Source: Paenibacillus thiaminolyticus
Lineage (GTDB): Bacteria > Bacillota > Bacilli > Paenibacillales > Paenibacillaceae
Direction of reading: 5' to 3'
DNA: 64,000 nucleotides
Assembly: GCF_007066085.1 (NCBI RefSeq)
Contig: NZ_CP041405.1
Coordinates: 2,108,001 to 2,172,000, forward strand
Below are positions 3,410-63,559 of this stretch, piece after piece. Under the pieces are notes generated by a model. That model was given only the letters and a program-made list of their open reading frames with translations. It had not been told where the DNA came from and made no database searches. Both the position numbers and the translations under genes were made by a program. How positions within the stretch are numbered: the stretch's first letter is position 1; every line of letters begins with the position of its first letter.

Positions 3410-4306
3410 CTACTGCAGCAATTTAGGAATCGAGCCGGTTTTGAAAACGGCTTCGTTCAGTTGATTCAGCATATCCTCCGACACCTTGCCGCTGCCTTCC
3501 TGGATAAGCTGAACTTCCACTTCTTTCTTGCCCCACTGCTTATATACCTGCTTCGTTGTATGGAAATACAAGTCGATTTTATTTCCTTTAATTTTCGAAC
3601 CGATATCCGTCACGATGCCGTAGCCGTAGCCGGGAATATACAAGATGCTGCCCAGCGGAAAAACGGATAGATCGGCGGCGATCGTGGACACGTAATCTCT
3701 TCGCACCTTCACGCCGGAATAGGTGATTCCGTATTCCGGATGGCCCGGTTTTTTCCCGGTCGATTCCACCCCTGCCGTATAGCCCGTGGCGATGACCTTC
3801 ACGCTTTTGATCACCTGCTGCCTCCCCGGCGCCAGGTTGATGTCGGAATACGACGTCGAGGAAGTCGGAACCGCCTTGCGCGGCTCATTCGGCGCCGCTT
3901 GGTCCGGACGGGCCGGTGAATTGACATATACGATCGGAACCGGCGAAGACTGTTCGCTCCTTACATTGTATGCCCCGAGCGCGGTGAATCGGTTCCAGGC
4001 CATCGAATCTGAACCGTTCATCATCGGCTGATATGTGTCCTGCGGAAGGGTTGAGCCCCCCCATGCCAGCGCAGAAGCGGACAATCTTCCCTGCATGGCG
4101 GCAGACATCGGCCCTTGCGCCATCATGTTCGCATAGCGGTACGGATAGGCCTCGGCCGCTCCTCGGTCTGGTGCACACGCAATGGCCAGCATGCCCAGCA
4201 GAAGAATGGCCGCCAGTCGACGCCGCGAGCGCTTGGCGCGAGCGCCGGTTGACTGCATCCTCGAACGTTCTGTCCAATTTTGTTCCTTGTTCATTCCTGT
4301 CAACAT
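3410..4306 (-). CDS. Secreted 3D-domain protein (YuiC/Sps-like, putative murein-active)
   Basis: A 298-residue protein. The N-terminus is highly basic and is followed by a hydrophobic segment ([16 protein letters not shown], about residues 31-46), so it is exported; the cysteine there is not in a canonical lipobox. Residues about 190-285 form a 3D domain named after its conserved aspartates, seen here in [27 protein letters not shown] and [17 protein letters not shown]. 3D domains of MltA and YuiC type act on peptidoglycan, as lytic transglycosylase-like enzymes or stationary-phase factors. ATG at 4306 has GGGAGGGG seven bases upstream. The middle of the protein is low-complexity and not recognised. 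Confidence 0.85.
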
Positions 4307-4367
4307 ATGGTTACCCCTCCCTTAGTGGGAAGGATGTCCACGGATGATTTTTTTTATGCACCATCGA

Positions 4368-4401
4368 CAAAAAAAGAACACCCTCCGCAAGGAAGGCGTT
4401 C
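4368..4401 (-). terminator. Intrinsic terminator of the envelope cluster
   Basis: On the minus strand a 10-11 bp stem (GAACGCCTTCC pairing with GGAGGGTGTTC, including G-U pairs) is followed by seven T residues. It lies just after the SEDS gene stop and before the 3D-domain gene. Confidence 0.85.
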
Positions 4402-4424
4402 TTTCGACAACAGCCAGCGCAGCT

Positions 4425-56844: not shown

Positions 56845-57160
56845 AAATAAAAAAGCCTTCTCTGTCTCAAGGGACGAGAAGGCCGTGGTACCACCCTTAT
56901 TAGACATCACGCGCTTCGGCATGGCCGGGGCCGCGAGCTGTCTCACTTGATACGACGATAACGGGTCGTTCGCCGGGAGCCTCTACTGGCACAGGCTATG
57001 CCTGCCGTTCAAGGCCCTGCTCCGGAGTGAATTTCGGCAGTCCATGTCTTCAGACGCGCTCTCAGTCGGCGGCGCATCCTCCCTGGGAAGCGGTGCTGCG
57101 TACTTGTCTCCATCTAGGCAGTTCCATCGATACATGTGTTAACGATAAGCAATACGTTAC
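56845..57160 (-). promoter_or_regulatory. T-box riboswitch leader of pheST
   Basis: The core GGGTGGTACCACG lies at 56884-56896 on the minus strand, followed by GCCTTCT/AGAAGGC and a T run (56845-56883). The specifier loop GAAATTCAC contains the phenylalanine codon TTC at 57029-57031, followed by A, as usual for specifiers. Uncharged tRNA-Phe would allow pheST transcription. Confidence 0.94.
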
Positions 57161-57169
57161 ATTTCATGT

Positions 57170-57198
57170 ATTATAGTCAACGCGCCGCTGTTTTGCAA
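57170..57198 (-). promoter_or_regulatory. Promoter of the pheS leader
   Basis: On the minus strand TTGCAA (57193-57198), a 17-bp spacer and a perfect TATAAT (57170-57175) predict a start near 57163, at the beginning of the T-box leader. Confidence 0.8.
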
Positions 57199-57370
57199 GT
57201 CTAATTCACGGAGTTGATTGCGCCCGATACATGCTTGATTCCTGACGGCCCCACAACAGGACATCACAGCTATTTTCTCCCTCCTCTTCCCGCTCAGCCG
57301 TCAGGCTGCCATTTTTCTTCATAACGCCATGTCCACCTGATATCTATAGAAAAGAACGCCCTATTTTTAT

Positions 57371-57435
57371 TATGACGTATTATATTAAAAATATGCGATT
57401 ATATATTACACATCATTTATTTATTGTGATATACT
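57371..57435 (+). promoter_or_regulatory. Two CcpN-type operator matches at the gapB promoter
   Basis: TGTGATATACT at 57425-57435 is a perfect match to the CcpN consensus TRTGHYATAYW and overlaps a -10 (TATACT, 57430-57435). TATGACGTATT at 57371-57381 matches with one mismatch. A possible -35 is TTACAC near 57406. CcpN represses gapB, pckA and sr1 under glycolytic conditions in B. subtilis. No ccpN gene is in this window. Confidence 0.6.
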
Positions 57436-57488
57436 GTATCATGAAAATGAAACCAATTATGTATCCACTCTGAAGGAGGAATTCGACT

Positions 57489-58529
57489 ATGGCATTACCT
57501 GTTGCCATCAACGGCATGGGCCGCATCGGCCGTCTCGTGCTGCGCCGCGCTATGGATGAAGCGCATTCGCCGTTCGCCATCCGGGCCGTGAACACTCTTT
57601 ATCCCGCCGCCACCATCGCGCATCTGCTCAAGTACGACTCCATTCACGGAAAATGGAACGCGAACATCGCCGCTGAAGGCAATACACTCCTTATTAATGA
57701 TACGCCCATACAGGTAGTGGCAGAAGCCGATCCGGCCCGGCTGCCCTGGCAGTCGCTCGGCATTCATACCGTCATCGATGCAACCGGCAAATTCACGGAT
57801 CGCCCTGGCGCTTCCAAACATATCGAAGCCGGCGCGGAAAAAGTCATCATCACCGCTCCAGGCAAGGATCTCGACTTGACGATCGTGATGGGCGTCAACG
57901 AGCAGATGTACGACGATGAGAACCATCACCTCGTCTCGGCCGCATCCTGCACCACGAACTGCCTCGCGCCGCTGCTTCATCTGCTTGATCGCTCGTTCGG
58001 CGTCGAATCGGGCTGGATGACCACCATTCATTCCTACACCAATGATCAGAAGCATCTCGATAATCCGCATAAAGATTTGCGCCGCGCGCGGGCATGCACG
58101 CAGTCCATCGTTCCGACGACCACTGGTGTAGGCAAGGCGCTGGCCGGCATTCTGCCGCATCTGGCGACCTCGGTGCAAGGCATCTCGGTGCGTGTGCCGA
58201 CGCCGGATGTCTCGCTCGTCGACTTGACGGCCGAAGTGAAAACATCCGTAACCGCAGATGATGTCCGGCTCGCCTTCCTTCATGCGATCCGCGACGGACA
58301 TGATCGTTATCTCGAATGGTGCGACGAGCCGCTCGTCTCCACCGACTTCATCGGCAACGACAAATCCGCCGTCGTCGACGGGATGTCACTTATCGCCCAT
58401 GATCATCACATTAAACTTCTCGCCTGGTATGACAACGAATGGGGTTATGCGGCCCGGGTCGTCGACTTGGCCCGCCACGTTGCACTGGAGGGAGTGAGAG
58501 GCTCATGCAAAACGGCAGCTGCCCGGTAA
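57489..58529 (+). CDS. gapB: Glyceraldehyde-3-phosphate dehydrogenase, gluconeogenic GapB type
   Basis: A 346-residue type I GAPDH. The Rossmann loop is NGMGRIGRLVLRR, the catalytic cysteine is C154 in SAASCTTNCLAP, and the histidine lies in the TTIHSYTNDQ block. In the NAD-binding region the usual GapA aspartate is missing (AVNTLYPAATIAHLLKYDSIHG), a change typical of NADP-using, gluconeogenic GapB. ATG at 57489 has AAGGAGG about nine bases upstream. It starts an overlapping operon with an SR1P-like gene and ppdK, and its promoter carries CcpN-type operators. Confidence 0.93.
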   Translation: MALPVAINGMGRIGRLVLRRAMDEAHSPFAIRAVNTLYPAATIAHLLKYDSIHGKWNANIAAEGNTLLINDTPIQVVAEADPARLPWQSLGIHTVIDATGKFTDRPGASKHIEAGAEKVIITAPGKDLDLTIVMGVNEQMYDDENHHLVSAASCTTNCLAPLLHLLDRSFGVESGWMTTIHSYTNDQKHLDNPHKDLRRARACTQSIVPTTTGVGKALAGILPHLATSVQGISVRVPTPDVSLVDLTAEVKTSVTADDVRLAFLHAIRDGHDRYLEWCDEPLVSTDFIGNDKSAVVDGMSLIAHDHHIKLLAWYDNEWGYAARVVDLARHVALEGVRGSCKTAAAR

Positions 58530-58669
58530 TGCTGGGCGCCATTCTGTGCGAACGCTGCGGAACCCTTTTGGAGGAAATCGATACAGAGAAAGTGATCGTG
58601 TACTATCATCGGTGCAACGACTGCGCCGTCTGTTCCACATTTGATAAAATCGGGGGCGAATCAGAATGA
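58505..58669 (+). CDS. SR1P-family GapA-binding small protein
   Basis: A 54-residue protein. From about residue 9 it matches the SR1P peptide of B. subtilis (39 residues, GTIVCQDCNEAIQYF... then EDEKVT): here LGAILCERCGTLLEEIDTEKV then VYYHRCNDCAVC. SR1P binds GapA and raises its activity. ATG at 58505 lies within the gapB end, twelve bases after GGAGGG; the alternative ATG at 58529 overlaps the gapB stop (TAATG) and matches the SR1P start better, but has no site. Its stop overlaps the ppdK start (ATGA). It sits in an operon with gapB, unlike the stand-alone SR1 of B. subtilis. Confidence 0.8.
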   Translation: MQNGSCPVMLGAILCERCGTLLEEIDTEKVIVYYHRCNDCAVCSTFDKIGGESE

Positions 58670-61344
58670 AGCCGACTTGGATCTGTCACTTCCGGCATGG
58701 CGATGCCGGCATGAAAGCGCTGTTGGGCGGAAAGGGAGCCAATCTCGCGGAGATGACGCGCATCGGGCTGCCCGTGCCGCCCGGCTTCACCATTACGACG
58801 GAAGCTTGCCGATCCTACTACGCGCTGAACCGGCTGCCTGACGGCCTGATGGACGAGGTAAGTTCCGCTCTGCAGGCCGTCGAGCTGATGCGCGGCCAGC
58901 GATTCGGGGACGCCCATGATCCGCTTCTCGTCTCCGTCCGCTCCGGTTCTGTGCATTCCATGCCCGGCATGATGGATACGATTCTCAATCTCGGACTGAA
59001 CGATGAGACCGTTCAAGGCCTCGCCTCTGCCACGGGCGACGAGCGCTTCGCTTATGATTGCTACCGCCGCCTCATCCATATGTTCGGCAATGTCGTGTCC
59101 GGCGTCGAATCAGGTGACTTCGAGCGCATCCTCGCCGAAGTCAAGGCGCATTGCGGGGCGCAGACGGACCAGTCCCTCTCCGCCGACGGCTTGCGGGAGG
59201 TTGTCCGGCGGTATAAGCATTATTTGGAGGAAGAAGCTGGCGCCCCGTTCCCGCAAGATGTCCACGTCCAGCTGCAGTTGGCCATCGAGGCCGTATTCCG
59301 CAGCTGGAACAATCACCGCGCGCAGGTGTACCGCAAGCTGCATCAGCTCTCCGATGACGAGGGCACGGCTGTCAACATCCAGTCGATGGTGTTCGGCAAC
59401 CGCGGCGCGGACAGCGGGACGGGCGTGCTCTTCACCCGTCATCCGTCGACTGGCGAGAAGATTTTGTTCGGCGAGTATTTGACCGATGCCCAGGGAGAGG
59501 ATGTCGTTGCCGGAACCCGGACGCCGCAGCCGATCGCCAAGATGGCCGAGGAAATGCCGGATCTGTACCGGCAGCTGACGGAAGCTGCCGATCAACTGGA
59601 GCGCCATTACCGCGACATGCAGGATATCGAGTTCACGGTTGAACGCGGCAAGCTGTTCATCCTGCAGACGCGGGCCGGCAAGCGCACGGCGCAAGCCGCC
59701 GTCGCCATCGCGGTCGCGCTCGTGCATGAAGGGCTGATCACGGCGCAGGAAGCGCTGCTGCGATTAGACGTCGCGCAGCTGGAGCATCTGCTGCACCCGT
59801 CCATTGCGCCCGATGCCGCGATCGACACCGTGGCGACCGGCCTGCCCGCCTCGCCGGGAGCCGCCTCCGGCCGCATCGTGCTTGATGCCGACGAGGCGGA
59901 GCGAATGGCCGCCGCCGGCGAGCGCGTCATTCTCGTCCGGCCGGAGACAACGCCGGAGGATATTCACGGCGTGCTCGTGGCGGAAGGCGTGCTGACGAGC
60001 CGGGGCGGCATGACGAGCCACGCGGCCGTCGTCGCCCGCAGCATGGGGAAGCCGTGTGTCTCCGGCTGCGAGGACGTCAGCTTCGACTTCACTCGCAATT
60101 GCATCGTGATCGGCGCGCGCACGTTCCTCGAAGGCGACCTGCTGTCGATCGACGGTGCGACAGGACGCGTCATCGCCGGAGCCGTGCCGCTCGTCGCCGC
60201 GGAGATGTCGGATGAATTCCAGCAGCTACTGGAATGGGCGGACCGCGAGCGCGAGCTGGGCGTCTACGCGAACGCGGATACGCCCGCGGACGCCGCGAAG
60301 GCGCGGGCCCTCGGGGCCGAAGGCATCGGACTGTGCCGGACGGAGCATATGTTCATGTCCCCGGAACGGCTATGCATCGTTCAGGAGATGATTCTGGCCG
60401 AATCGGAGGCGGAACGCCGGAAGGCGCTCGCACTGCTGCTGCCGCTGCAGCAGGAGGACTTTGAGGGCATTTTCGAGGCGATGGACGGTTATACGGTCAC
60501 GGTTCGGCTGTTGGATCCGCCGCTTCATGAGTTCCTGCCGAATCTGGAGGAGCTTGTCGTCCGGCAGACCGAGTGGAAAGCGACCGGCACTGGCACAGAG
60601 CGCGAACGGGACGATCTCGAGCGCCTGATCGCCAAGGTACGTGCCCTGCATGAGCTGAATCCGATGCTCGGCCAGCGCGGCTGCCGGCTCGGCATTCTGT
60701 TCCCGGAAATTTATGAGATGCAGGCGGAGGCGCTGTTCCTTGCCGCTTCCCGCATGCTGCGCCAAGGCGTGCGCGTGCAGCCGGACATCATGGTGCCGCT
60801 GATCGGCCACGCCGCCGAGCTGAAGCTGCTGCGCGAGCTCATCGAGCGCACGGCAGAGCGGGTGCTCGGCGCCGAGCGCCGCGGCTGCGCGTACCGCATC
60901 GGCACGATGATCGAGGTGCCGCGCGCGGCGCTGACAGCGGGCCAGATTGCGGAGCATGCCGATTTCTTCTCGTTCGGCACGAACGATCTGACGCAGATGA
61001 CGTTCGGCTGCAGCCGCGACGACGCGGAGGGCAAGTTCCTGGCCCACTACGTCGACCGCCGCGTGCTGGCGGCGAACCCGTTCCAGGTGCTCGACACGTC
61101 CGGCGTCGGCCAGTTGATTGAGCTGGCGGTGCAGCGCGGCCTCGCCGTCAATCCGCAGCTCAAGACCGGCATCTGCGGCGAGCACGGCGGCGAGCGGGAT
61201 TCGATCCTGTTCTGCCATGCGACGGGCCTCGATTATGTAAGCTGCTCAACGTACCGCGTCCCGCTCGCCCGCATCGCTGCCGCTCAGGCGAAGCTGCTTC
61301 TCGGAAGCCGGAACAAAGCTTCCGTGCATTCGATATCTGTGTAA
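58666..61344 (+). CDS. ppdK: Pyruvate, phosphate dikinase
   Basis: An 892-residue enzyme that converts pyruvate, ATP and phosphate to phosphoenolpyruvate, AMP and pyrophosphate. The order is an ATP-grasp N-terminal domain (LLGGKGANLAEMTRIGLPVPPGF), a swivelling domain with the phosphohistidine motif GGMTSHAAVVARSMGKPCVSG (near residue 450), and the PEP/pyruvate TIM-barrel with GICGEHGGER near the C-terminus. Its place in one operon with gapB supports gluconeogenic use. ATG at 58666 overlaps the SR1P-like stop. A hairpin follows the stop codon. Confidence 0.96.
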   Translation: MKPTWICHFRHGDAGMKALLGGKGANLAEMTRIGLPVPPGFTITTEACRSYYALNRLPDGLMDEVSSALQAVELMRGQRFGDAHDPLLVSVRSGSVHSMPGMMDTILNLGLNDETVQGLASATGDERFAYDCYRRLIHMFGNVVSGVESGDFERILAEVKAHCGAQTDQSLSADGLREVVRRYKHYLEEEAGAPFPQDVHVQLQLAIEAVFRSWNNHRAQVYRKLHQLSDDEGTAVNIQSMVFGNRGADSGTGVLFTRHPSTGEKILFGEYLTDAQGEDVVAGTRTPQPIAKMAEEMPDLYRQLTEAADQLERHYRDMQDIEFTVERGKLFILQTRAGKRTAQAAVAIAVALVHEGLITAQEALLRLDVAQLEHLLHPSIAPDAAIDTVATGLPASPGAASGRIVLDADEAERMAAAGERVILVRPETTPEDIHGVLVAEGVLTSRGGMTSHAAVVARSMGKPCVSGCEDVSFDFTRNCIVIGARTFLEGDLLSIDGATGRVIAGAVPLVAAEMSDEFQQLLEWADRERELGVYANADTPADAAKARALGAEGIGLCRTEHMFMSPERLCIVQEMILAESEAERRKALALLLPLQQEDFEGIFEAMDGYTVTVRLLDPPLHEFLPNLEELVVRQTEWKATGTGTERERDDLERLIAKVRALHELNPMLGQRGCRLGILFPEIYEMQAEALFLAASRMLRQGVRVQPDIMVPLIGHAAELKLLRELIERTAERVLGAERRGCAYRIGTMIEVPRAALTAGQIAEHADFFSFGTNDLTQMTFGCSRDDAEGKFLAHYVDRRVLAANPFQVLDTSGVGQLIELAVQRGLAVNPQLKTGICGEHGGERDSILFCHATGLDYVSCSTYRVPLARIAAAQAKLLLGSRNKASVHSISV

Positions 61345-61356
61345 CTTAGGTAGGGA

Positions 61357-61390
61357 GCAGGCTGTCGGAATCATTCCCGGCAGCCTGTCT
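61357..61390 (+). terminator. Probable terminator of the gapB-ppdK operon
   Basis: CAGGCTG (61358-61364) pairs with CAGCCTG (61381-61387), with an inner CGG/CCG pairing, 14 bases after the ppdK stop. The T run is short (TCTTAGCTT). Confidence 0.55.
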
Positions 61391-61507
61391 TAGCTTCCGT
61401 CATGAGGAGGTTATGAAGCGGGAAGGAGTCAATTCGCCCGTTGAACTCAAAGTGGCGAGTTTCGAAGGCGGGCTAAACCTAGAAGCGTTTCCTTGAAGCT
61501 GAACTGG

Positions 61508-61993
61508 CTATTCCGTAACCTCTACTTTCTTCGGGGGCGTATGAATTGCGTATGTTTTGCTTTTCCCGTCTATATTTACCGTAAACTCCGCAAGCGCCGA
61601 GACTTCATACATACCCGGTTGCTGAATCTTGTACGTGTAATTTTCTGAAATATACGCTTTGCCAGTCAAATTCCGAAGCTTGCCCCCATCCGTAACCGCG
61701 TAAGCGTTGATCTCCTTCCCAGTCCCATCCTTAATCGTATATACAAACAATTGCTCCCGACTGGTTATGGCCAGTTTTTGTTCCGCTTCCTGCTGTAATT
61801 CAGCTTTGATAGTAAATTCCTCGTTGATTCCCACTTTTTGCGGAAGCGAGATATGTGCTGAAAAGAGGCCTTCTTCCCTATTTTCCAATGTAATAGGATC
61901 TCCCCCTGTATCCGAGTCCGCAGATCGCTCCACATTCAAGGACTGACAACCGAGACATACAACAAGAACTATGGCAATCAACCATTTTTTCAA
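61508..61993 (-). CDS. Lipoprotein of unknown function
   Basis: A 161-residue lipoprotein (VVCLGCQS, cysteine near residue 16). The mature part is a single beta-rich domain (FTIKAELQQEAEQKLAITSREQ, YEVSALAEFTVNIDG). I recognise no family; the size and topology recall BsuPI-like intracellular inhibitors but nothing supports that. The start appears to be TTG at 61993, ten bases after AGGAGG. Base composition is visibly more AT-rich than neighbouring genes, as is the protease gene beside it. Confidence 0.7.
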   Translation of the reverse strand: MKKWLIAIVLVVCLGCQSLNVERSADSDTGGDPITLENREEGLFSAHISLPQKVGINEEFTIKAELQQEAEQKLAITSREQLFVYTIKDGTGKEINAYAVTDGGKLRNLTGKAYISENYTYKIQQPGMYEVSALAEFTVNIDGKSKTYAIHTPPKKVEVTE

Positions 61994-62176
61994 TTATTAT
62001 CCACCTCCTAAAACAACAGACGAACCAGCTTCGTTTTTGTTTCAGAAATAAATATTTTTCCTTTGTGGATTGATAAAGTAGCATGCACTTCATTATTGAA
62101 CATGAAAAAAAGCACATTAGCTTAGTCCCCATTTTTCAGGATATCTAACTATCCTAAGAAAGGAATGAATGGAGTT

Positions 62177-63559
62177 ATGAAACTCAGAAAATTGGTAAGT
62201 TTGATTTTTCTCGCCAGCTTCTTACTTTTCAGTTCAATCATTAGCGCCGCTGAAGATATAGCAGATAAATATGGTTGGATCACCATTAAAGGATCGATTT
62301 CAGATATCGCAGAAATCACTCAAAAAAACAATTTTAATAGAATACCCTATCCCTTGGAGTTGACCATCTCCCCTGATAACCTCACCAATAAACTTTTTTT
62401 GGAGAACTATGTTGAGAAGCAAAGAATCAAACAAGATTTTCCTGCCATTAAAAAGTTAATCGAAAATGAACCTGCCCAGTACTCAGGCCATTACTATAAT
62501 GCGGATAAGGGAACTGTAATCATCCAAATAACAGAGAACTTAGATTTCTTAAAAGCACAAGTTCGGAATTCCGTACAAAACTATGATAAAGTTCAGTTTG
62601 AAGTTACAAAATATTCTTGGGCTGAAATTGAAAATGCCAAGGAAATTATTATTCAAAATGTTGAACCAGGTACGGTTAGAGCACTCATCCCCGACGTGAA
62701 AAATAACAAGTTAATCATTGCATTCGATGAAGAAGCGCTCATAAATGAAGAAACTGTTTCCTCACTAATATCCCACCCGGAGATGCTTGAATTTACTACC
62801 ATGCCTGCTTCAGCACTTATTGCTGAAACAGATGATACGTCTTACGATTCTCCATTTCCAATCGGCTCCAAAATAGGCGGTGACTATGTCAAAAAAAATG
62901 AAAATGAATATGAGTACTATATATGTACAACAGGGTACTTTGGAGCTGATCAAAATGATCAAGAAGTCCTAGTCACAGCCGGCCATTGCCAAAACAAGCC
63001 AAGAATAAATACGGAGTGGTATCAACCTACATGGAAAACACCAACCATTGGAAGGTTTACTTTTAGAACCACTTCTGCCGTTGATGGAACGAACGGATAT
63101 ATTAAATTGCACTCAAGTTATAGCGGACGCCCAAGGGTACCGTACCCCTCTTCCTCGAATATGGCAATGATTACAGGGGTTTACACAAGCGATACACCGG
63201 GAGATACAATTTATTTTAGAGGTGCAAATAGCGGAACCACTACATCTGGTACAATTTCATACTCCAATGTTGATATTTATTGGGGAAAAGGTGGATATGG
63301 ATACAAACGTGCCGAGGTTCTTGCCACGGGATATTCTTCTATAGGAGGAGACAGTGGCGGGCCGCTCCTAACAAATTATTCTTATGATAATGATCTTACC
63401 GGATGGACTTTTGATTTGGCTGGAACCCACACAGGAGTGGTAACTCTAACGAGCACCGAAAGCCCTATTCCTCCTGGAACCTATAAAGTATATGAACCCA
63501 TTTGGACAACTTTTAATGATCTAAACCTTACGAGGATAAAAGTTATTGCTAAACCCTGA
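62177..63559 (+). CDS. Secreted trypsin-like (S1) serine peptidase
   Basis: A 460-residue exported protein. The signal peptide is MKLRKLVSLIFLASFLLFS onward, ending near ISAAE. A pro-region (residues about 25-215) precedes the protease: catalytic histidine in VTAGHCQNK, aspartate probably in SAVDGTNGYI, serine in SSIGGDSGGPLL. This is the alpha-lytic/chymotrypsin-type clan with a long N-terminal propeptide. ATG at 62177, with GGAG close before it, begins a good signal peptide; the ATG at 62165 leaves no room for a site. The gene is AT-rich against its surroundings, which may indicate transfer. The adjacent lipoprotein gene is divergent. Confidence 0.88.
   Translation: MKLRKLVSLIFLASFLLFSSIISAAEDIADKYGWITIKGSISDIAEITQKNNFNRIPYPLELTISPDNLTNKLFLENYVEKQRIKQDFPAIKKLIENEPAQYSGHYYNADKGTVIIQITENLDFLKAQVRNSVQNYDKVQFEVTKYSWAEIENAKEIIIQNVEPGTVRALIPDVKNNKLIIAFDEEALINEETVSSLISHPEMLEFTTMPASALIAETDDTSYDSPFPIGSKIGGDYVKKNENEYEYYICTTGYFGADQNDQEVLVTAGHCQNKPRINTEWYQPTWKTPTIGRFTFRTTSAVDGTNGYIKLHSSYSGRPRVPYPSSSNMAMITGVYTSDTPGDTIYFRGANSGTTTSGTISYSNVDIYWGKGGYGYKRAEVLATGYSSIGGDSGGPLLTNYSYDNDLTGWTFDLAGTHTGVVTLTSTESPIPPGTYKVYEPIWTTFNDLNLTRIKVIAKP

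Follow-up and report, generated by a model that had tools for sequence, protein, structure and literature searches.

In Bacillus subtilis, SR1P is a protein of 39 amino acids whose reading frame lies within the 205-nt small RNA SR1, and the available portions of PMC8152036 and PMC8464778 regard it as a product of that RNA. According to the same portion of PMC8152036, SR1P binds GapA and enhances the interaction of GapA with RNase J1, with Lys332 of GapA (in a pocket with helix 14) being decisive for SR1P binding; it also puts the number of SR1P homologues at 23 in 2012, all sharing their genomic location, and at 139 (unpublished) in 2021, all from Bacillales. CcpN occupies two sites at the B. 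subtilis sr1 promoter (PMC8464778, in the part available), and the known CcpN regulon takes in gapB and pckA in B. subtilis, along with ppdK, ccpN and fbp as predicted targets in Lactobacillales (PMC3616900, likewise in part).

Here we describe a stretch of 64,000 nucleotides from Paenibacillus thiaminolyticus (NZ_CP041405.1, positions 2,108,001 to 2,172,000; ‘the window’), in which the same kinds of gene are found behind CcpN-like boxes, yet, unlike in the known CcpN regulon, gapB, an SR1P gene (SR1P-A) and ppdK form a single string (Table 1). In the ORF list of the window the three genes share one strand and each overlaps the next: the end of SR1P-A and the start of ppdK have an ATGA in common (58666-58669), and SR1P-A, if it starts at the ATG at 58505, overlaps gapB by 25 nt. 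The ATGA/TAATG overlaps claimed by the first-pass annotation are thus real, its ‘TAATG’ junction referring to an alternative in-frame ATG at 58529 that would give a protein of 46 codons. From this layout we infer that the three genes would be read as one transcript.

Table 1. Features of the gapB-SR1P-A-ppdK locus (positions within the window)
Feature	Position	Strand	Description	Basis
Upstream CcpN-like box TATGACGTATT	57371..57381	+	one mismatch to the CcpN consensus used here	
Predicted promoter	57407..57435	+	-35 TACACA, -10 TATACT, spacer 17	consensus scan
Second CcpN-like box TGTGATATACT	57425..57435	+	exact match to the CcpN consensus used here, covers predicted -10	
gapB	57489..58529	+	346 codons, GapB-type glyceraldehyde-3-phosphate dehydrogenase	PF00044 + PF02800 (Pfam)
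SR1P-A	58505..58669	+	54 codons (46 from ATG 58529), four-cysteine small protein	PF13790, profile-profile, dN/dS
ppdK	58666..61344	+	892 codons, pyruvate phosphate dikinase	TIGR01828 + Pfam domains

The flanking enzymes are readily identified, with ppdK reaching 1297.7 bits against TIGR01828 (NCBIfam cut-off 843), and gapB scoring above the cut-off for TIGR01534 and, at 469.5 bits, under that of 546 for NF005830. GapB has the motifs VNTLYP and DNPHKD where the GapA of this genome has INDLTD and DLPHKD, differences that we take to mark NADP and NAD types, respectively. SR1P-A itself scores 23.1 bits (E 8.5e-5) against PF13790, under the Pfam gathering score of 26; profile-profile comparison by hhalign of eight operon-type sequences with 13 SR1P sequences from outside the family (one of which, L235, comes from a locus called SR1 by Rfam) gives 96.7%, with E 3.4e-10 over 34 columns. 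The proposed match of the 54-residue protein to SR1P, longer than its B. subtilis homologue, is borne out by this alignment, and on sequence grounds we regard its homology to SR1P from outside the Paenibacillaceae-type group as firm. The two cysteine pairs of PF13790 are present in sequences of the genus (C15, C18 and C40 in 16/16 aligned, C37 in 15/16), and the codons of SR1P-A are under purifying selection, dN/dS being about 0.23-0.25, with the gapB overlap excluded, in comparison with the two copies of the genus that have diverged furthest; the four closer ones show just 3-10 differing sites. A search for solved structures of SR1P matched none at E up to 1.

Two operator-like boxes, judged by the consensus used here, lie at the gapB promoter, at 57371 and 57425, as the first-pass annotation had it: one on the -10 and a second with a single mismatch. 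As at the B. subtilis sr1 promoter, one box stands upstream of the -35 and the other at the promoter core. The predicted promoter is weak by itself, because promoter-like sites in the region number two against a mean of 1.6 in shuffles, which is no excess. Likewise the consensus used here, TRTGHYATAYW, which we take to be that of the CcpN box, proves nothing as a pattern alone, since it matches the genome 89 times and a reversed control 129 times. Another pattern, TATGACGTMWT, has nine sites in the genome, three of them upstream of gapB, of a second SR1P gene (SR1P-B) and of pckA, the very loci from which it was derived, and seven in the reversed control; given this want of enrichment, the case for the boxes rests on the upstream regions of gapB in relatives.

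There, the consensus occurs without mismatch in 15/66 regions of 250 bases (from relatives other than this genome, and mutually non-independent), where 40 shuffles gave 2.6 on average and never more than 5, and TGTGATATACT is identical in six relatives within the genus (L061-L063, L074-L076) and in L225. TATGACG, chosen among the commonest 7-mers (AT-rich 7-mers were equally common in the control), is found upstream of gapB in 25 of the 45 regions from relatives that were left after de-duplication, and in 0/45 reversed controls. In de-duplicated stretches of 450 bases upstream of SR1P genes that lack gapB, it occurs at 3/3 loci of the type followed by a ppdK-like gene, at 4/9 of those followed by ccpN, at 1/10 SR1P-ppdK loci, and at 8/21 without a neighbour recognised at that stage, a set that includes two of pckA type (L067 and L109); it is absent at the one locus beside divergent glpX only and at four tandem SR1P copies (0/1 and 0/4), with none in reversed controls. 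We infer that CcpN may be the protein that binds the gapB boxes, and CcpN-type control is likely to be common to the SR1P-A operon and B. subtilis SR1.

Elsewhere in the genome, ccpN is present at 5.36 Mb (L059:7731-8357, HTH_11 and two CBS stretches) and pckA at 5.67 Mb, the latter with a TGACGT-type box upstream, so that the check for these two genes proposed by the first-pass annotation gave the expected answer. Its claim that SR1P would appear exclusively alongside the gluconeogenic enzymes goes too far, since SR1P-B (PF13790, 27.2 bits, above the cut-off of 26) sits in the separate 5.36 Mb locus, transcribed away from a divergent glpX and ahead of a gene resembling the PPDK C-terminal domain, ccpN and yqfL (PDRP); as the genome encodes two SR1P copies, one of them may have another role. 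Upstream of SR1P-B are the same 11-mer as the upstream gapB box, TATGACGTATT, and TATGATATATA. PDRP (YqfL, PF03618) and PPDK are both encoded here, as in the known pair, with PDRP adjoining ccpN outside the ppdK operon. There are two GAPDH genes; gapA follows cggR near 4.06 Mb, and its product ends in AKKGL, an ending that GapB lacks.

The gene lying between SR1P-B and ccpN is a 313-codon ORF (L059:6648-7586) with 27% identity (E 5e-10) to part of the PPDK C-terminal domain, stopping before the domain end. We dropped it as a Pfam family member, there being no match at E 0.001; by its sequence it is perhaps a non-catalytic PPDK relative.

Nor is this wiring a peculiarity of one genome. Within the genus 15/19 genomes match the SR1P-A protein and 19/19 the profile, and across the family SR1P occurs in 104/394 genomes at 136 places, being present in 58 of the 62 genomes with gapB (E up to 1e-112) and in 46 of the other 332, a count that ignores phylogeny. 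For neighbours we tallied 135 places, omitting those of the window and of G010 (L035), adding a weak extra copy in L185, and dropping duplicate fetches of loci and the lesser SR1P pieces in L162 and L177. On the same strand, gapB directly precedes SR1P at 47 places, and at 77 SR1P is directly followed by a PEP-forming gene (ppdK, ppdK-like or pckA), the arrangements being gapB-SR1P-ppdK (33, including L211, whose gapB is merely a 114-base match), SR1P-ccpN (23), SR1P-ppdK (18), SR1P-ppdK-like (11), gapB-SR1P-pckA (10), SR1P-pckA (5), gapB-SR1P then a gene of no recognised type (4), and SR1P without any such neighbour (31, eight of them viewed with 1.5 kb per side only); 30 stretches held none of the seven genes sought.

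The gapB-SR1P-ppdK string is found in 8/19 genera sampled in the family, with ccpN on the same fetched stretch in 19/33 loci. In some relatives the string departs further from the known CcpN regulon by taking in ccpN, yqfL and glpX, and glpX-gapB-SR1P-ppdK-ccpN-PDRP runs uninterrupted in L157 (gapB in two pieces), L161, L163, L167 and L218. At 21 family gapB loci no recognisable SR1P adjoins gapB, and in ten of these pckA, ppdK or ccpN follows gapB directly; P. apiarius (L269) has a second gapB and then pckA with no SR1P between them. Among the 80 gapB-alignment matches listed, SR1P was seen in P. rigui (L270, pckA type) and P. abyssi (L272, ppdK type).

Synthesising these results, we lean towards a reading in which SR1P belongs to the gluconeogenic regulon of CcpN as the product of an operon gene, placed between gapB and ppdK and working without a recognisable SR1 RNA. 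On glucose, CcpN, from its gene at 5.36 Mb, would occupy both boxes, the one upstream of the -35 and the one covering the -10, and shut the promoter down; on a gluconeogenic carbon source the operon would be read, such that GapB and PPDK could drive the pathway upward, while SR1P-A might bind the idle glycolytic GapA and promote its interaction with RNase J1, as in B. subtilis. SR1P would then arrive as a product of the operon, with no need for the SR1 small RNA. This operon reading draws on gene order, homology, purifying selection, the boxes of relatives, a ccpN gene in the genome, the linkage seen throughout the family and the lack of a recognisable SR1 RNA; GapA as the partner of SR1P-A is suggested by analogy, and the AKKGL ending of GapA counts in its favour given the role of Lys332 reported in the available text of PMC8152036. 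Against it we count the Pfam score under the cut-off, the neighbourless places, the gapB loci devoid of SR1P, the box at a single gapB-less SR1P-ppdK locus in ten, and the second SR1P in the genome.

A rather improbable alternative is that SR1P-A assists PPDK, PEPCK or GapB, for example as a small metal-site adaptor, and not GapA, whose service might then fall to SR1P-B. That a PEP-forming gene downstream is the commonest neighbour, exceeding gapB upstream, would suit such a role, as would the fact that some genomes of the genus have two copies of SR1P; the C-terminal lysines retained in GapA argue against it, and so does the situation outside the family. SR1P occurs in at least 147/398 genomes drawn across the class, and the best 30 extra-family loci, viewed with 1.5 kb per side, had none of gapA, gapB, cggR, ppdK, ppdK-like, ccpN, PDRP or glpX, the genes sought (a set without pckA); among the 118 genomes listed with both, no SR1P lay within 6 kb of any match to the gapB query. 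The ‘gapA’ label given by tblastn to many Bacillaceae loci was set aside outside the family, the motif being of GapB type wherever readable (for instance in L273, L278-L285, L290, L292 and L295).

It seems very unlikely that the SR1P-A frame serves chiefly to couple translation to the gene downstream, or as its leader, with a product that matters little: it does overlap both neighbours, and a small SR1P ORF stands ahead of ppdK or pckA in many relatives, yet it is homologous to a free-standing protein, and its conserved cysteines and low dN/dS speak for a product that is kept. Least probable of all, in our estimation, is processing of the operon mRNA into an SR1-like base-pairing small RNA too diverged for Rfam. 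Sequence does not reveal RNA processing, and five weak matches to RF02376 exist in the family, none of them above the cut-off or at an SR1P place; on the other side, Rfam SR1 has no match in 56900-61600 of the window at E up to 1, and RF02376 exceeds its cut-off in 0/384 family genomes (our own included) under strict filters that a diverged SR1 RNA could escape, whereas it does match B. subtilis, the positive control, and L235. This marks the difference from B. subtilis, where the ORF belongs to the small RNA and not to a gapB-ppdK operon.

As to origin, we offer as a tentative and rather doubtful idea that SR1P arose in a gluconeogenic module glpX-gapB-SR1P-ppdK/pckA-ccpN-yqfL, which some members of the family retain almost complete, and that the SR1 of Bacillus came about when the ORF was transferred behind a separate CcpN promoter and acquired base-pairing; the direction could be the reverse, with the SR1 small RNA preceding the operon SR1P. 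If the operon did come first, SR1 would be a regulatory RNA descended from a gene of an operon, and the SR1P loci of the family would in any case form a natural series for the gain or loss of an ORF by a dual-function RNA. An SR1P without recognisable SR1 RNA also sets what the peptide does apart from what base-pairing does, making each testable alone. With SR1P apparently encoded in the very operon whose pathway it is presumed to serve, the ‘moonlighting’ of GapA in RNA decay may be linked, throughout a large family, to how gluconeogenic enzymes are supplied.

The first-pass annotation had supposed this wiring not to be described. In the literature searched we found nothing on SR1P with Paenibacillus, on ‘GapA-binding peptide’ or on SR1P with a dikinase, which agrees with it as far as it goes; novelty in print is unproven, because the 2012 SR1 conservation study lies outside that literature and the 139-homologue list could include Paenibacillus. 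The name, at least, is not new, since NCBI or UniRef already label proteins of relatives ‘GapA-binding peptide SR1P’. CcpN, gapB and Paenibacillus do occur together in the portion available of a paper on a division protein (PMC7028823).

Several further observations concern individual loci. Two tandem SR1P-like ORFs stand ahead of ccpN in L180, L185, L186 and L209, and a second match in G015 (E 0.003) was rejected as SR1P, its frame being, by eye, antisense to a valS-like gene. In L211 a gapB remnant (4292-4405) separates glpX from SR1P-ppdK, which looks like a loss of gapB with SR1P retained. In genus g5 (L120-L122, L133, L134, L136, L141, L142) SR1P has no gluconeogenic neighbours and shares common surroundings that include an opposite-strand gene, named by eye as antiporter-like. 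Within the window, a T-box leader lies upstream of pheS on the minus strand (56867-57125; 89.3 bits, Rfam gathering score 93), and a 464-codon ORF on the plus strand (62165-63559), with the trypsin-type motifs TAGHC and GGDSGGP read by eye, probably encodes a secreted serine protease.
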